Virus record (IMG/VR): IMGVR_UViG_3300033153_004331
Span: 1-32,208 of that record
Strand: one strand, 5' to 3'
Source of the DNA: a virus
Length of the DNA: 32,208 nt
The notes beneath the pieces are model-generated. The model was not told the origin of the DNA. It ran no database searches and saw nothing but the letters and a program-made list of their open reading frames with translations. This document shows positions 4,904-23,262 of this stretch, in pieces (position 1 is the stretch's first letter; the number at the start of each line of letters is the position of its first letter). The translations under genes were made by a program, and so were the position numbers.

Positions 4904-4978
4904 GCCGTATAAGCATTTAAGGTGATGCGCCGGTCTTGTAAATCGGGGAAAGGAGTTCGATACTTCTATGCGGCCCCA
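4904..4978 (+). tRNA. tRNA-Thr (anticodon UGU), CCA encoded
   Basis: The full cloverleaf can be drawn: acceptor GCCGTAT/ATGCGGC (one G-U), D stem GCAT/ATGC with a GG-containing loop, anticodon stem CCGGT/ATCGG with loop CTTGTAA (anticodon TGT at 4937-4939), variable GGAA, and T stem AGGAG/CTTCT with loop TTCGATA. C73 is followed by an encoded CCA (4976-4978). It reads ACA, a codon common in these AT-rich genes. The discriminator C is unusual for a bacterial tRNA-Thr. Confidence 0.93.
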
Positions 4979-5723: not shown

Positions 5724-6296
5724 ATGAAACTATGGAACAGCAACAGATCGAGATGGTTAAAAGCAGCAATGGACAGGATAACAAATTGCATCGTCACAAT
5801 AACACAACCACACCACGAAATACATGATGGTAAAACGTGGTTTCTCCAAGACATTACATCAGATATGGATGCCGAAGCTGGTGATTTTATTTCCATCCAG
5901 TTTACAACCCCAGCAGCAACTGCCGGATTAGTTCATGTAACATTTGATGCTTATGTTGGTGCAGCTTATACATTTGATATACGAGAAGGACAAACCGGAG
6001 GAGGAACTGGAGGAAGCGCATTAACAGCATATAATCGTAGACGAGGTTCTGCGAATACACACGGAATGACTTTTACGAAAGATGACACCATAGGTACTGG
6101 TGGAACCGTATTCCAAACAAAATTTTACGGATCAGGCTCAGGGCCATTTGCAACAGGCGGATCAGCTCGTGATTCTGGTGAATGGGTATTAGATGCATCA
6201 ACTCTATATCAGGTTCGGGCGTATTCAGTGAACGCTGTAGAAGGGTTTCTTTCTATGGAATTCTATCTTCATATTGATAAAGACGATATATCTTAA
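5724..6296 (+). CDS. Virion surface/decoration-like protein, 190 aa
   Basis: A 190-aa protein with a TGGAGG ribosome-binding site. After a basic helical start come PHHEIHDGKTWF (about 29-40) and a beta-rich body with a Gly-rich segment followed by AYNRRRGSAN. Proteins with the HHEIH...NRxR pattern recur in phages as virion structural proteins of jelly-roll type, often beside tail or head genes (from memory of such proteins). A capsid decoration or head-fibre role is therefore likely but not demonstrated. It is separate from the main head cluster by 8 kb. Confidence 0.6.
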   Translation: MKLWNSNRSRWLKAAMDRITNCIVTITQPHHEIHDGKTWFLQDITSDMDAEAGDFISIQFTTPAATAGLVHVTFDAYVGAAYTFDIREGQTGGGTGGSALTAYNRRRGSANTHGMTFTKDDTIGTGGTVFQTKFYGSGSGPFATGGSARDSGEWVLDASTLYQVRAYSVNAVEGFLSMEFYLHIDKDDIS

Positions 6297-15987: not shown

Positions 15988-16050
15988 AAGGGGAGGCACA
16001 TTTCGTGCCAACGGGATTACACCGATAAAGGTAAAACAGGAGGAGTTATT
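15988..16050 (+). promoter_or_regulatory. Structured RNA leader, copy A (two hairpins plus possible pseudoknot)
   Basis: After AAGGGGAG come hairpin 1, GGCAC-ATTTC-GTGCC (15995-16009), and hairpin 2, CGG-GATTACA-CCG (16012-16024). The spacer AAAGGTAAAACAGGAGGAG follows, carrying the ribosome-binding site. TTAC in loop 2 (16017-16020) can pair with GTAA (16031-16034) just before the Shine-Dalgarno. The same order of elements, with different but still paired stems, recurs before the scaffold gene. Probably controls translation of the 163-aa gene. Confidence 0.6.
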
Positions 16051-16542
16051 ATGAGTGATTTTATTTTAGTATGTGACAGTAACATTAGATACCCAATGAC
16101 AGCAAACGAAAGAGATCGGTATCAGAAGAAACGAGGAATGGGTGGTAGGTTGTTTCCTTTTTTCACATTTGATAACGGTGATGAAGTCTTTATGAATAAG
16201 GTTATTGGTATCGAAGTTGGTGAATACAATAAACCGAAAGTATTACTGGATGTTGAGAGTCCTGTAATTCAGATAAAAGACATACCAAAATTGGACAAAG
16301 CACCAACTACAGAACAGGAAGTGGCGAGAAAGAAAAAAGAAGCTGAAGATGAATTGATGAAAGATATGTATGAGAAATCAAACTGCAAACATGATGATGT
16401 GAGTTTATTTGCTCAGGATACTAAAAAAGGGAAACGATATTTTCCAGTATGTGATTTCTGTGGACATAGAGGACGATACGTAAAAACTGAAAATCTAACT
16501 GATGAAGAAAAAGAAGCAGCTCAAGTATGGGTTGAGAGGTAA
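16051..16542 (+). CDS. Zinc-binding protein between terminase and portal, 163 aa
   Basis: A 163-aa protein. The N-terminal 75 residues look like a small alpha/beta fold (FILVCDSNIRYPMTANERDR). A charged helix lies at 85-110. The C-terminal part has C112, H114, C134 and C137 (CDFCGHRG), a probable zinc ribbon. AGGAGGAG in the structured leader precedes the start, and the portal gene follows after 3 nt. No family recognised. Its position between packaging genes suggests a role in head assembly or packaging (inference). Confidence 0.65.
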   Translation: MSDFILVCDSNIRYPMTANERDRYQKKRGMGGRLFPFFTFDNGDEVFMNKVIGIEVGEYNKPKVLLDVESPVIQIKDIPKLDKAPTTEQEVARKKKEAEDELMKDMYEKSNCKHDDVSLFAQDTKKGKRYFPVCDFCGHRGRYVKTENLTDEEKEAAQVWVER

Positions 16543-16545
16543 ACT

Positions 16546-18660
16546 ATGTTCGACAGACTAAATAAAACTAAAAAGTTAGAAAAGGCCAAAGAGTTATTTA
16601 TTGAGGCTGTTGATTCTGATAAGAATTATCAAGAGGAAGCTAGAGATGATTTTGATTTCAGAAATGGAAATCAATGGAAAGATACAGAACGTATAGCCTT
16701 GGAAAATGATGCCCGTCCAGTTCTTACTTTTAATTTAATTAAATCGAGTATAGACTTGTTAATAGGAATGTCAACTGATAATAGAAAGCGATTCAGATGT
16801 AGTCCTGTAGAAAAGAATGATGAGTTTTTATGTGAAGTGTTAAATGATATTCTCGAATGGCTATATGATTCTAACGATTATGAAAGGGAAGAAACATCTG
16901 CTCTGGAATCAGCAGCAATAAGTGGTAGAGGATATTTAGCGGTTGACTTTGTTCCAGATCCAAGAAGGTTTGGTGATATTAAATTGTCACTGGTTGACGT
17001 TCCTGTTCACGAGGTACATTTTGATCCAGCTTCTCGTAGGCACAATTTAGAAGATGCGTCTTATATTTGTTGGGATAAATGGTTGTCTCGTACTGATTTT
17101 AAAGTTAGATACCCGAAGGTGCCAGATCGAAAGATAGATGCTCTTATAGAACACGGCCCGGAACTGATTGGTTCTGGTGGTGTGTCTATGACAAATAACG
17201 GTGGTATAACAGATATTCCTGTTGATGTAGTTAGTGATGATTCTGATTATGATAAGCCCGTAGATTATGAGTTTTATAATAAAAACAAAGATATGATACG
17301 TGTTGTTCATATGGAATATTGGGATACTTTTAAACGATACTTCGGATTTAATCCTGAGACAAAAGAATTTGAAGAGTTTGATGGTAAGAATTTGAAACAG
17401 ATTAAAGCTGAATTTTTAGCAGAGTATGGCGAGGAATTTACCTTTGAAATCTTGATGGACAAGAAAGTTAAATGGATACAGTTTGTTGGTGATGATATTC
17501 TATATGATGATGATTCACCTTTACCTTATCCCGGATTTTCTATTTGCCTAATGACAGCATATAGAGATCCTAGTGGTAGAACAGCCGATCATTTCGGGGT
17601 AGTTCGTTTGATGAAAGACCCACAGAAAGAAGTTAACAAGAGATGGTCACAGACTTTGAATATGTTAAATCAGCAAGTTCAGGCTGGAGTGTTTGCAGAA
17701 GCGGATGCTTTTGTTGATGATGCTCAAGCTGAATCTTCTATGAAGGAAGCTGGTTCTGTAACATATTTAACTGCTGGTGCTATTAGTGGTGGTAAATTTA
17801 AAGAGAGGGTTGTTCCTAGATTTCCTAATGCTCCAATGCAGTTGGAACAATATTCACAGGATATTATAAAGAAGATCACAGGGATCAATCCAGATCTATT
17901 AGGTCAGGATAGTGGTAGACAGGAACCCGGAGTTGTTGTTAGATTACGACAACAGCAGGGACTGACACTATTGAAACCATTGTTTAATAATTTCAATGCG
18001 ATGAAAAAAGAAATCTTTAAAAGAGTTCTGACAATCGTGATGCAGTTTATGCCAGATCAACAGATATTACGTATCATAGGACAGAATGATAGATACGAAA
18101 TTGATAAAGAGAATGGCATAATTATGGATAAGCAAAATGAATTAGAAGCACCTATACGTAACATACGTGATTTTGAATATAATATTAATGCAGACAGTGC
18201 TTCATCTACAATGACTCAGAAGATGTTTGAGTTAACTGCTCTGTTAGAAATGCAACAGAAGGACTTCCCGGTTGATCCTCTTATTATTATTGAGAAGATG
18301 GAACTACCGATTACGGATAAACTTCGTTGGATCGAATACATTCAGAGTCAGCAAGAGGGTCAGGCTAAAGCTCAGGAAGAGGAGAAGGTAGCTGAGATAG
18401 AGTTTAAGGATCGTGAGATAGCTGCTGATGAAACCAAGAACCAGATGGATTTCGTTACAGACATGCTCAAGATTAAACAGATGGCTGATAAGGATGATAA
18501 GAAGCAGACAACTGATTTTGCTAAGTTAGATCAGCAATCTCAGCAGATGCTGGCTAATTTTATTTCACAAATGGCTAGCACATTGGCTCAGAGTCAGAAG
18601 GGGGAGGAGAAGAAAAATGAACCCAAAAAGGGAACAAGTAAGGATAAGAAGGGGAAATAA
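16546..18660 (+). CDS. Portal protein, P22 type
   Basis: A 704-aa protein that forms the dodecameric head vertex for DNA entry. The family hallmarks are the N-terminal helical start with ARDDFDFRNGNQW (32-44) and RPVLTFNLIKSSID (57-70), and later VPVHEVHFDPASRR and the DPSGRTADHFGVVRLMKDPQ region. The last 110 residues are Lys/Gln/Glu-rich, mostly helical, and end in a lysine tail, the place of the barrel or a disordered extension in P22-like portals. The length is close to that of P22 gp1. A small gene with its own ribosome-binding site begins inside its 3' end. Confidence 0.92.
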   Translation: MFDRLNKTKKLEKAKELFIEAVDSDKNYQEEARDDFDFRNGNQWKDTERIALENDARPVLTFNLIKSSIDLLIGMSTDNRKRFRCSPVEKNDEFLCEVLNDILEWLYDSNDYEREETSALESAAISGRGYLAVDFVPDPRRFGDIKLSLVDVPVHEVHFDPASRRHNLEDASYICWDKWLSRTDFKVRYPKVPDRKIDALIEHGPELIGSGGVSMTNNGGITDIPVDVVSDDSDYDKPVDYEFYNKNKDMIRVVHMEYWDTFKRYFGFNPETKEFEEFDGKNLKQIKAEFLAEYGEEFTFEILMDKKVKWIQFVGDDILYDDDSPLPYPGFSICLMTAYRDPSGRTADHFGVVRLMKDPQKEVNKRWSQTLNMLNQQVQAGVFAEADAFVDDAQAESSMKEAGSVTYLTAGAISGGKFKERVVPRFPNAPMQLEQYSQDIIKKITGINPDLLGQDSGRQEPGVVVRLRQQQGLTLLKPLFNNFNAMKKEIFKRVLTIVMQFMPDQQILRIIGQNDRYEIDKENGIIMDKQNELEAPIRNIRDFEYNINADSASSTMTQKMFELTALLEMQQKDFPVDPLIIIEKMELPITDKLRWIEYIQSQQEGQAKAQEEEKVAEIEFKDREIAADETKNQMDFVTDMLKIKQMADKDDKKQTTDFAKLDQQSQQMLANFISQMASTLAQSQKGEEKKNEPKKGTSKDKKGK

Positions 18661-18781
18661 AATCCGACAAGAAAAGAAGGATCTTCAAAAACAACTCAAG
18701 AAAGATTATGAGAAGTATATTAAAAAAAATGGTGGGTGGCCTACCGCTAAAAAACAGCAGATTATACAAAAAATATGCTAA
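18617..18781 (+). CDS. Basic mini-protein overlapping portal 3' end, 54 aa
   Basis: A 54-aa frame starts at ATG 18617 inside the portal gene, in another frame, behind a strong GGGGAGGAGAAGAAAA ribosome-binding site, and runs 121 bp past the portal stop. It begins MNPKREQVRIRRGNKIRQEK, is very basic and helical, and ends GGWPTAKKQQIIQKIC. The ribosome-binding site and the extension past the portal make it credible. It could be a nucleic-acid-binding or assembly factor; no family recognised. Confidence 0.6.
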   Translation: MNPKREQVRIRRGNKIRQEKKDLQKQLKKDYEKYIKKNGGWPTAKKQQIIQKIC

Positions 18782-18803
18782 TAGTACATAAAAAAGTCAC
18801 TGA

Positions 18804-18860
18804 CCCCTGATTTAGCATTTTTAAACTATTGAAATTATTGAAATAAAAACAGGGGTTTTT
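18804..18860 (+). terminator. Possible terminator or structured RNA after portal
   Basis: CCCCTG (18804-18809) pairs with CAGGGG (18850-18855), followed by TTTTT (18856-18860). The 40-nt A/T-rich loop is long for an intrinsic terminator, so efficiency is uncertain. It ends the portal gene group in a 181-bp non-coding gap (18782-18962). Confidence 0.45.
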
Positions 18861-18861
18861 A

Positions 18862-18894
18862 TGAAATGCATACCCTACTATGGGTAAAATTTCA
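18862..18894 (+). promoter_or_regulatory. Two-tier hairpin in portal-scaffold gap
   Basis: TGAAAT/ATTTCA (18862-18867/18889-18894) encloses TACCC/GGGTA (18871-18875/18882-18886). It lies right after the possible terminator and about 70 bp before the next gene. It may be a regulatory or processing structure. The rest of the gap up to 18962 is AT-rich with no gene; a promoter may be present but could not be defined. Confidence 0.4.
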
Positions 18895-18962
18895 CTTATA
18901 GTAAAATCAGTGTGTTATAAAAATAATAATTTTTTTAAACGTAATATAGAGGGGGATAGATT

Positions 18963-19154
18963 ATGGCTATATCACATTCGTTCATAACAAAAAACGGGAT
19001 GAAAACAAAAAAACTAACAGGGATGACAGCAATCAGAGAGAAATGTCTTGAGTGTATGGGTTGGAGTTTTGCAGAAGTTAAAAACTGCCCATCAAAAGAT
19101 TGTGCTTTATTTCCTTTTAGGTTTGGAAGAAGTCCAAAACAGGGGGAAATATAA
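18963..19154 (+). CDS. Small zinc-binding phage protein, KCLEC...NCPSKDC family
   Basis: A 63-aa protein with an AGGGGGATAGATT ribosome-binding site. C28, C31, C42 and C47 form the pattern KCLEC-x10-C-x4-C, followed by LFPFRFGRSP. This signature is common among small phage and bacterial proteins of unknown function (from memory), probably one zinc site. Its stop overlaps the next ATG (TAATG), so the two are translationally coupled. Biochemical role unknown. Confidence 0.75.
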   Translation: MAISHSFITKNGMKTKKLTGMTAIREKCLECMGWSFAEVKNCPSKDCALFPFRFGRSPKQGEI

Positions 19155-19345
19155 TGAGTGCATTAACACCAGCTAATGGAAAATATCGCAGCATGTGGAA
19201 AATTTATGGTAAGCAGATGTCTGATAAAGATATGTGTAAAAATTATAACAAGGGTTATGACGAAATAAAATGGGGCGATACAGAAAGATTTGAAGAGAAA
19301 GATCAAACATTAGGTGGTCATAAGAGAATAAGATATATAGGTTAA
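19154..19345 (+). CDS. Hypothetical protein, 63 aa
   Basis: A 63-aa polar protein rich in Lys, Tyr, Asp and Gly, coupled by a TAATG overlap to the zinc protein before it, with CAGGGGGAAA upstream. No hydrophobic core is obvious (WKIYGKQMSDKDMCKNYNKG), so it may be small and partly disordered. It is followed by the structured scaffold leader. No family recognised. Confidence 0.6.
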   Translation: MSALTPANGKYRSMWKIYGKQMSDKDMCKNYNKGYDEIKWGDTERFEEKDQTLGGHKRIRYIG

Positions 19346-19492
19346 TACCGATAATCCATGAGGAGGTCTCCCCCCCTCGCATGGATACGTGGTGTTGGGA
19401 TGCTATGCGTCTCAACTACCACAATTTTAAAGGGGAGTCCATTACGGACAACACCGATTACTGGTGCAAAGGTAAATTAGGAGGAGAATACA
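19346..19492 (+). promoter_or_regulatory. Structured RNA leader of scaffold gene, copy B with extra hairpins
   Basis: There are four helices in 147 nt. CCATG-AGG pairs with CCT and CATGG (19356-19363/19375-19384). A long hairpin pairs GTGGT-GTTGGGA with TCTCAAC-T-ACCAC (19389-19400/19410-19422). Then come GTCC-ATTAC-GGAC (19437-19449) and CACC-GATTACT-GGTG (19452-19466). The last two follow AAGGGGAG and precede AAAGGTAAATTAGGAGGAG, as in copy A at 15988-16050. TTAC (19458-19461) can pair with GTAA (19472-19475). Probably a translation or stability control element for the scaffold. Confidence 0.6.
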
Positions 19493-20482
19493 ATGGGAGA
19501 AGACAATGCGAACGTGGATGAAATCTTTAAAGACTTGGACAAAATTGATGAAGAGTTAGGAATCAAACCAGAAGCCAAGACTGATGATGATCCAAAAGGA
19601 ACAGAGTTACAATCGACTGTGGATTCGTTAACAGAAAAATTAGAAGCAGCATCTAAAGAGAAACAAGGATTGATGAATGCTGCTAAATCTGAAAGGCGAA
19701 AACGTCAAGAAATGAAGGGCAGTCTCGACAGTTTAACATCGACAGTCAACAGTATTATTCAGCAACGTCAAGCTGGCAAAAAAGACGATCTCAATGATGT
19801 TGGGATGCTTGTTGATTTTTCTGAAGATGGTGAAAAAGCATATATACCTAATAAAGAATTAGATGATATGCTCAATCCACTATACCAGAAAATTGAACAA
19901 TTAGAATCAACGATACGAATGACGGCAGGTGCAGCAGAGGGAAACAGACAGGCAAAAGATACGATGGACTCTATTGTGGGATCTGATGAACGTTATGGTA
20001 GCGTATATGGCAAGTACAGAGCAGCAAGAAATTGGGTAGAGAATCAAGTAATTGATTTTCAGCGAGATAACAATATAAATCGTGTTGTGTCTTCTGGACA
20101 GGCTTTAGATAAAATCTTTACAGAAGATATGGAAAAAGAGTTTAAAGAGAAATATCCTGAATTCAGTTTAGTTGATGTTGTGACGGCTGAAGATTCACAG
20201 CGACATTTCTCTAATATGTTATCTAACACGGCTGATACTTTTGATAGTCTTATGAATAACGATAAGAGTCAAAAACCTGTGGACAGTAGCAAATTTAAAC
20301 AAATAATAAATAAACCGTTAGGTCTTTCTAGTGCAACAAATGCGAAAGGTAGCGAACTCACTGTGAGTGAAAAGGTTGGGCAATTGAATAGTACAGATAT
20401 TATGGATCTATCCGATGCACAGGCTTCACAGTTGGAGGAGGCGCTATTACGTGAAGAAAGGGCTGATGGTGTTAAATTTTAA
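19493..20482 (+). CDS. Scaffolding protein
   Basis: A 329-aa acidic, mostly helical protein directly before the major capsid gene, the usual scaffold position. Residues about 35-105 are a Lys/Glu-rich coiled coil (LTEKLEAASKEKQGLMNAAK). The middle has long helices, and the last 30 residues are charged and helical, the region that binds coat protein in P22-type scaffolds. It is not recognised by sequence, only by composition, size and position. AGGAGGAG lies at the end of the structured leader. Confidence 0.8.
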   Translation: MGEDNANVDEIFKDLDKIDEELGIKPEAKTDDDPKGTELQSTVDSLTEKLEAASKEKQGLMNAAKSERRKRQEMKGSLDSLTSTVNSIIQQRQAGKKDDLNDVGMLVDFSEDGEKAYIPNKELDDMLNPLYQKIEQLESTIRMTAGAAEGNRQAKDTMDSIVGSDERYGSVYGKYRAARNWVENQVIDFQRDNNINRVVSSGQALDKIFTEDMEKEFKEKYPEFSLVDVVTAEDSQRHFSNMLSNTADTFDSLMNNDKSQKPVDSSKFKQIINKPLGLSSATNAKGSELTVSEKVGQLNSTDIMDLSDAQASQLEEALLREERADGVKF

Positions 20483-20497
20483 TAAGGAGAAATTAAA

Positions 20498-21550
20498 ATG
20501 GCAGTAACAGCTTTTGGGACTAACGATCCTCAAACCGTAAAGATTTGGAGTTCACTGACAATGCGTGAATCTCTTAAAAGTACTTTGTTCAGTAAGTTTC
20601 TTGGTACTTCTAAAACATCCATTTTGCAACGGTTAACAGACCTTGAAAAAAGCGCAGGTGATCAGATTAAGTATGATCTCTTGATGCAGATGGGTAATGC
20701 AGGGGTTACTGGTGATGATCGTATGCGTGGTCAGGAAGAAGCATTGGTCTACCATCAGGATACAGTTAATATAGATCAATTGAGAAACGCACATTCATTT
20801 AGGCGTATGAGTCAGCAGAGAACTCTGCACAACCTTCGGGCTGATGCAAAGACTAACTTGGCTGATTGGTTTGCTGGTAAAATGGATAGTTATATGTTTA
20901 GGACTCTTTGTGGCGATACATCGCTTGTACATGGACAGACAGCTACAGCTCCAGATTCCGATCATATAATTTATTCTGGTGATGCAACAGCAGAGGGAAA
21001 CATCGGTAGTAACGATCAGATCTCTCTGGCAGATCTCGACTATTGTAAGGAGAAAGCCGTAACATTAACTCCGCCTATTCGTCCTACGAATATTGACGGT
21101 AGTGATTATTATGTTGTAGTGCTCCATCCGTACAGTGTGGTTGATCTTAGGTTAGATGTTGCTAATAGTGCTTACACGGATTGGCCCACTATCCAGATGT
21201 ATGCGAATAAACGTGGTGAGAGTAATCCGATATTCACTGGCGCTCTTGGGGTTTACAACGGTATGATTATGTTTGATAATACCAGATTGTATAGTCCAGT
21301 TTCTACAGTATATCGAAACCTGTTCTTAGGTGCTCAGTCAGGTGTATTTGCAGTAGGTAGTGCATATGATTCTATTGAATCTCAGCGAGTCGGTAAAGAT
21401 AATCTGATGAGTTGGTATGAGGAAATAGATGACTTCGGTAATGAGAAGGGTATCTCTGTGGGATGTATCTTTGGTATGAACAAGTCAGTGTTCAACTCTA
21501 AGGATTACAGTACTGTAGTTATCTCATCTTATTCTGTAGCACATGCATAG
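20498..21550 (+). CDS. Major capsid protein (DUF4043 / N4-gp56-like, HK97 fold)
   Basis: A 350-aa shell subunit. Residues 17-37 (WSSLTMRESLKSTLFSKFLG) and the segment AGVTGDDRMRGQEEALVYHQ (68-87), followed by QLRNAHSFRRMSQQRT, match the pattern of the DUF4043/N4-gp56 major capsid family as I recall it. The C-terminal half has beta-rich sequence, with the usual FGMNKSVFN-type stretch before the tail. The length suits a processed-free HK97-fold coat. TAAGGAGAAATTAAA precedes the ATG, a strong site as expected for the most abundant protein. Confidence 0.88.
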   Translation: MAVTAFGTNDPQTVKIWSSLTMRESLKSTLFSKFLGTSKTSILQRLTDLEKSAGDQIKYDLLMQMGNAGVTGDDRMRGQEEALVYHQDTVNIDQLRNAHSFRRMSQQRTLHNLRADAKTNLADWFAGKMDSYMFRTLCGDTSLVHGQTATAPDSDHIIYSGDATAEGNIGSNDQISLADLDYCKEKAVTLTPPIRPTNIDGSDYYVVVLHPYSVVDLRLDVANSAYTDWPTIQMYANKRGESNPIFTGALGVYNGMIMFDNTRLYSPVSTVYRNLFLGAQSGVFAVGSAYDSIESQRVGKDNLMSWYEEIDDFGNEKGISVGCIFGMNKSVFNSKDYSTVVISSYSVAHA

Positions 21551-22593: not shown

Positions 22594-22600
22594 ACTTATC

Positions 22601-22626
22601 GGGGAGTGGTTTTTCCTCTCCCCTTT
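22601..22626 (+). terminator. Hairpin/terminator after decoration-like protein 2
   Basis: GGGGAGTGG (22601-22609) pairs with CCTCTCCCC (22615-22623), with one T-T mismatch, followed by TTTATTATA. The geometry is close to an intrinsic terminator, and downstream adaptor genes would then be transcribed at a lower level by readthrough. Confidence 0.6.
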
Positions 22627-22641
22627 ATTATAGGATAAAAT

Positions 22642-23262
22642 ATGGCTTTAGTTAGCGAAGTAATAAGATCAGCGAGATATGATCTTGGAGATATGGGACA
22701 GAAATTTGATGACGATCAGTTGGTGAACTATCTGAATCGTATTATGCAATTATTGGACAGACTCTTAATAGCAAGAGGATCTGATTTTACATTAGATAGT
22801 ACAACAGATACCCTATCTTCTGGTAGTAATACTATAACTGAACCAACATTGAGTACTAAAATGATTCAATTATATTATGGTACTATTAGAATATATAAAG
22901 AATATTTTAATGATGTATCATATAGGTATCAGATAAATAGTGAGAATAGTTCAACAGGTTCCCCTAGCTATTGGGCACATAAAGGGAGTGATATATTTTT
23001 TAACATAGATGCTGATGATGATTATACTATTACTCTTTATTATCATCAAAGAACAGCAACATTAACTATGAGTTCTGATATGCCGTATAGTGATTTCTTC
23101 AATGAGTATCTCAGAGAAGCACTCATTATAATGGCATCAAAAGCTAAAGACGATAAAATTGTTAATGTTGATATGCAGTTCCATGAAATGTTTAAACAAA
23201 TTGTTAATAGTACAGTTATTGGTCGTAATCATGTACCCAAGTATTATAATTTAGGATTTTAA
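22642..23262 (+). CDS. Head-tail adaptor protein, SU10-like, first copy
   Basis: A 206-aa protein. An N-terminal helical start (MALVSEVIRSARYDLGDMGQ) with F/W-DDxxLxxYLN-type residues, a beta insertion and C-terminal helices resemble phage adaptor proteins that sit below the portal in SU10-like short-tailed phages. The order portal-coat-adaptor-nozzle supports this. Exactly as long as the next protein, with which it shares general layout. TATAGGATAAAAT precedes the ATG. Assignment is by pattern and position. Confidence 0.7.
   Translation: MALVSEVIRSARYDLGDMGQKFDDDQLVNYLNRIMQLLDRLLIARGSDFTLDSTTDTLSSGSNTITEPTLSTKMIQLYYGTIRIYKEYFNDVSYRYQINSENSSTGSPSYWAHKGSDIFFNIDADDDYTITLYYHQRTATLTMSSDMPYSDFFNEYLREALIIMASKAKDDKIVNVDMQFHEMFKQIVNSTVIGRNHVPKYYNLGF

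Follow-up and report, generated by a model that had tools for sequence, protein, structure and literature searches.

In phage P22, synthesis of the scaffold protein is feedback-controlled after transcription, and we know of no pseudoknot leader in this phage. In the gene 32 mRNAs of phages T4, T2 and RB69, the pseudoknot of an autogenous translational operator is found about 40-67 nt upstream, and the stretch in between is unstructured and rich in UUAAA (PMC535899, PMC3014915); T4 gp32 binds this pseudoknot and from there spreads across the ribosome-binding site (PMC535899). The leader of E. coli rpsO (S15) controls translation through a pseudoknot at its initiation region (PMC3014915). The STAXI motif consists of pseudoknots in tandem, located near genes for Ssb and integrase (PMC2864571).

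The window analyzed here is a 32,208-base virus record (IMG/VR IMGVR_UViG_3300033153_004331, positions 1-32,208); the leaders, their parts, the genes around them and the upstream hairpins described below all lie on its plus strand. Two leaders of 63 nt each, 3.4 kb apart, share one order of elements. Leader 1 (15988..16050) occupies all of the sequence between the stop codon of the terminase gene and the ATG of a zinc-ribbon ORF. Reading its sequence, we find GGGGA (15990-15994), the covarying hairpin H1 (GGCAC-ATTTC-GTGCC, 15995..16009), an AA linker and a second hairpin, H2 (16012-16024), in which stem S1 (CGG/CCG, 16012-16014 with 16022-16024) closes the loop GATTACA. The TTAC of this loop (16017-16020) can form a second stem, S2, with GTAA at 16031-16034, giving a pseudoknot at 16012..16034, and the Shine-Dalgarno sequence (SD), AGGAGGAG (16038..16045), starts 3 nt past S2. 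Leader 2 (19430..19492) precedes the scaffold and coat genes and has GGGGA at 19432-19436, again read in the sequence, a covarying H1 (GTCC-ATTAC-GGAC, 19437..19449), the AA linker and an H2 at 19452-19466 with S1 CACC/GGTG (19452-19455 with 19463-19466) and loop GATTACT. Its pseudoknot (19452..19475) joins TTAC 19458-19461 to GTAA 19472-19475, and the SD (19479-19486) lies 3' of it, ahead of the ATG at 19493. The predicted folding energies of the leaders are unremarkable and close to those of shuffled sequences (z of -1.7 and -1.0); the case for the leaders is comparative.

Both leaders stand at the head of genes for virion assembly. Leader 1 precedes the zinc-ribbon ORF (16051..16542, ATG at 16051; 163 aa with a CxH...CxxC pattern that is kept in its homologues), for which Pfam and PHROG gave no match, and the gene for a P22-like portal protein (16546..18660; PF16510, E = 4.8e-97), which begins 3 nt past that ORF. 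Leader 2 precedes a presumed scaffold gene (19493..20482, 329 aa), without a significant family match in Pfam or PHROG and named by its place between portal and coat and by the long helices of its structural model, and the gene for the major coat protein (20498..21550; PF13252, Phage_capsid_3, E = 1.2e-50; phrog_334). The terminase upstream of leader 1 is of the GpA type by profile search. As in P22-type head modules, the P22-like portal gene precedes those for scaffold and coat, the scaffold here being assigned by position only. The original prediction, which described the two leaders and placed them before a zinc-protein/portal pair and a scaffold/coat pair, was right to the base for the elements, and its gene assignments hold as well. 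Elsewhere, the window contains an exact 40-nt tandem duplication (881-960) and a phage-borne tRNA gene detected by an Rfam scan (4904-4975). Its coat gene is uninterrupted, unlike those of relatives with Group I introns (RF00028) in or beside the coat gene (L035:4864-5130 and 5867-6157; L037:9524-9794; L043:3690-3936).

Since covariation between two sequences is weak evidence, we searched for relatives, and a portal query returned nine loci in IMG/VR. Seven further copies of the element were found in four relatives: L035, L036 and L037 carry it before the zinc-ribbon ORF as well as before the scaffold ORF, and L043 carries it ahead of the scaffold, its zinc side falling past the contig end. 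In this small clade of uncultured phages, wherever both regions are covered, the element precedes both genes (four phages with two copies). Full-leader MAFFT alignments misplace H1 and the third pseudoknot loop (L3), and pairs were therefore counted on a gap-free composite of the outer four H1 pairs, the inner three S1 pairs and the four S2 pairs; the composite omits the H1 loop, some pairs and L3, and the registers of H1 and L3 were set by hand. Over the nine leaders, which come from five related phages and do not yield phylogenetically independent counts, all 99 of the 99 pair cells were paired, versus 73% in shuffles; changes on both sides had occurred at 8 of the 11 pairs, with 28 double-change cells against 8.7 in shuffles. 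As a control, sliding the partners by 1-3 columns reduced pairing to 27-43%. The arms of H1 pair within their own leader in 9/9 cases and in only 10/72 when swapped between leaders; swapped S1 arms pair in 26/72. Among 3203 other SD-led ORF leaders, 33 (1.0%) matched a relaxed descriptor of the whole shape, compared with 9/9 of the homologous gene starts. It is unlikely, judging from these sequences, that stems so divergent kept pairing through descent alone, and an RNA structure conserved by shape rather than by sequence is well supported by the comparison.

The same data bear on the idea that the repeats act in DNA, as a promoter present twice, its GGGGAG being similar to a T7-type transcript start, or as a recombination boundary. 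Two near-direct repeats do flank the zinc/portal module, and the S1 types are not sorted by gene: CGG/CCG occurs in the zinc leaders of the window and L035 and in the scaffold leader of L037, while CACC/CACT occurs in the scaffold leader of the window, in both L036 leaders and in the zinc leader of L037. This distribution suggests exchange between copies. We nevertheless regard a DNA-level role as extremely improbable, since it is pairing and not sequence that is conserved and the stem covariation already speaks against it; in addition, the bases upstream of GGGGA, read by eye, have no consensus in common, unlike those of a T7-type promoter, and a promoter scan of the region was at chance level.

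For the pseudoknot, the comparison is informative at fewer positions. Loop 2 is invariably 7 nt long (G-R-T-T-W-C-N), and its TTAC matches the GTAA ahead of the SD. The L035 scaffold leader has TTTC in the loop and GAAA in the tail, which amounts to one compensatory S2 pair; the remaining three S2 pairs are invariant over the nine leaders and uninformative either way. As three of the four pairs never vary, the evidence for the pseudoknot consists of a single compensatory event together with its geometry. S1 has 3-5 bp and S2 has 4 bp, L1 is 2 nt, L2 is 1 nt and L3 is 5-12 nt and mostly A-rich, and the distance from the end of S2 to the SD is 0-5 nt in 9/9 leaders. We take these loop lengths to fit a classical H-type pseudoknot. 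The original prediction had claimed two covarying hairpins and a shared TTAC/GTAA pseudoknot before the SD from the window's own pair of leaders, and had proposed a search of related phages. The homologues, which lay outside its view, bear out this structural reading: with the seven copies from four relatives, hairpin and pseudoknot pairs are kept in all 99 cells, H1 and S1 covary, and S2 has the one compensated pair (TTTC/GAAA) in L035.

An H-type pseudoknot with an A-rich third loop adjoining the SD also brings to mind compact small-molecule riboswitches such as preQ1-I or SAM-II. We consider this very unlikely here: invariant bases are few outside the pairs, the genes are structural rather than metabolic, and Rfam gave no match at E values up to 5. 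Against the covariance models of Rfam 15, which include preQ1-I, SAM-II and STAXI, neither leader matched at gathering score, and at E up to 5 no plausible match fell on either leader in the window; a scan of the relatives gave no match at their leaders. The original view that no named motif fits thus agrees with Rfam.

Structure upstream of the scaffold gene extends beyond this clade. Coat- and terminase-based scans yielded a wider clade, with portal or coat identities of mostly 55-80%; the zinc-gene leaders that were read in it have a plain SD and lack the element. Upstream of the scaffold gene, hairpin A (19354..19386 in the window, loop TCTCCCCC at 19367-19374) recurs across the wider clade with a free stem sequence and a conserved loop, NYTCCCCC, and covaries in 15 relatives: 90/90 stem cells are paired, with double changes at all six pairs (15 phages). 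Its carriers are the window, L035, L038-L040, L043, L054, L061, L064, L067, L069, L071, L072, L075, L081 and L082, and among the relatives it is commoner than the twin leaders. Between hairpin A and leader 2, a strong stem, hairpin B, is predicted at 19389..19422. In L054, L064 and L075 a simpler form, GTGACAACTACGAWAAGGTTGAAAGGA, stands directly before the scaffold SD, and its CAAC can pair with a GTTG at the place of GTAA. We infer that an older structured scaffold leader was elaborated in the window's clade and then copied to the portal operon, in that order. Pairing of the C-rich loop of hairpin A with the downstream GGGGAG was considered and rejected, since dinucleotide shuffling of the G-rich region gave complementarity just as good; a mini-ORF started at GGGGAG was rejected as well, as no start codon is common to the leaders. 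A further GGGGAG lies within a hairpin (GGGGAG...CTCCCC) at 22600-22625 of the window, ahead of an ORF at 22642, and such a hairpin also precedes the homologues of that ORF (L035:8204, L036:14222, L037:11850).

Strong hairpins A and B upstream of leader 2, together with a terminator-like inverted repeat 3' of the portal gene, are what might be expected if the folded 5' regions marked or protected the portal and scaffold transcripts at their ends, as elements of mRNA processing or stability. Such a role appears improbable, since the pseudoknot is tied to the SD and not to a transcript end, leader 1 has neither hairpin A nor hairpin B, and promoter and terminator scans of the region gave results at chance level. 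The inverted repeat itself (18805-18865, CCCCTG...CAGGGGTTTTT, with a long loop) was not picked up by the terminator scan; it is possibly a terminator that splits the portal and scaffold transcripts.

We lean, with little better than even confidence, to the view that both leaders represent a single cis-acting mRNA element, whose most likely function is to control how translation starts at the first gene of either head operon. The element would consist of GGGGA, H1, two linker bases and a compact H-type pseudoknot whose last strand lies 0-5 nt 5' of the SD. Once formed, or once stabilized by a bound protein, the pseudoknot would hinder 30S binding at the adjoining SD, and portal and scaffold/coat synthesis would in this way answer jointly to one signal. 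Consistent with an operator are the pair of copies that each of four phages has at homologous genes, the P22-like portal and gene order, the retention by the wider clade of another covarying structure in the scaffold leader, and the precedent of pseudoknot translational operators in phages (PMC535899, PMC3014915). Since the SD is not base-paired in the leaders, simple sequestration is not predicted, and occlusion by a bound or stabilized pseudoknot, as in T4 gene 32, is favored.

The unpaired SD also suits a constitutive translation enhancer or ribosome standby site, in which GGGGA, itself SD-like, would offer ribosomes another site to land and the folded H1 and H2 between it and the real SD would keep the site open, yielding more of the abundant head proteins with no regulator. 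GGGGA is conserved in 9/9 leaders, and G-rich SDs are common among these phages. A passive role of this kind, or one in stability, is the main rival to the operator reading. We judge the enhancer unlikely all the same, because a passive element does not need a covarying pseudoknot at a fixed position, high output is not an obvious need of the zinc gene, and distant relatives have a plain SD at that gene.

Returning to the operator, regulation by the leaders and any trans-acting factor are hypothetical, and the common trans-acting control that the original prediction proposed is plausible. The most natural candidate would be a feedback repressor, either a head protein or the zinc-ribbon protein, as the cases of T4 gene 32 and P22 scaffold autoregulation suggest. 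The zinc-ribbon protein is a candidate because leader 1 leads directly into its gene. A small beta domain is present in its structural model; a structure search gave nonsignificant matches only, many of them Hfq (E of about 0.6-1), so that an Hfq-like fold is only a lead; the same search with the scaffold model returned no matches. A more elaborate version, that a phage protein, possibly the zinc-ribbon one, binds both pseudoknots and sets the portal-to-scaffold/coat ratio, forming a two-operon posttranscriptional head-assembly regulon with the C-loop hairpin as a second, more widely shared part, strikes us as decidedly speculative and rather unlikely. If the portal and scaffold/coat operons are under pseudoknot control, this would offer an RNA handle on how tailed phages balance their portal, scaffold and coat proteins.

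We scanned 2.9 million viral contigs and the GTDB genome set for the pattern; these scans, which required exact anchor bases that diverged copies could escape, found structured copies in this clade only, and looser scans of viral contigs and bacterial genomes left chance matches only after filtering. The portal search of bacterial genomes found nothing and thus provides no host or prophage link. Such a leader is absent from three cultured phages (∼33-36% coat identity) and from one uncultured podovirus with a related portal, and literature searches found no such motif. On these sequence comparisons, the twin leaders look like an undescribed form of a known kind of element, the phage mRNA pseudoknot leader, and belong to no named family.

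Among described systems, STAXI resembles the leaders as a repeated pseudoknot near phage- or plasmid-type genes, but its copies are tandem and near DNA-binding genes, whereas here there is one copy per operon, 3.4 kb apart, and no Rfam match. Similarly, preQ1-I and related riboswitches have a small H-type pseudoknot close to the SD, again with an A-rich third loop, but the leaders have other loop sequences, nonmetabolic genes and no covariance-model match. With rpsO they share a pseudoknot at the initiation region; that leader belongs to a bacterial ribosomal-protein gene, while ours are without an Rfam match. P22 has the same portal-scaffold-coat order and portal type, although the scaffold proteins have no detectable similarity. 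Like these leaders, the T4-type gene 32 operator has its small H-type pseudoknot in the leader of a phage mRNA, on the 5' side of the ribosome-binding site. It controls the gene for a single-stranded-DNA-binding protein, whereas the genes here are the zinc-ribbon ORF and portal and the scaffold and coat; the present leaders moreover lack an unstructured UUAAA/UAAA tract of >40 nt from pseudoknot to start codon, S2 being 0-5 nt from the SD (9/9), and have a preceding hairpin and two copies per genome. The best reading, by analogy, is that the element would operate in the manner of the gene 32 pseudoknot of T4 without belonging to that class of operators.
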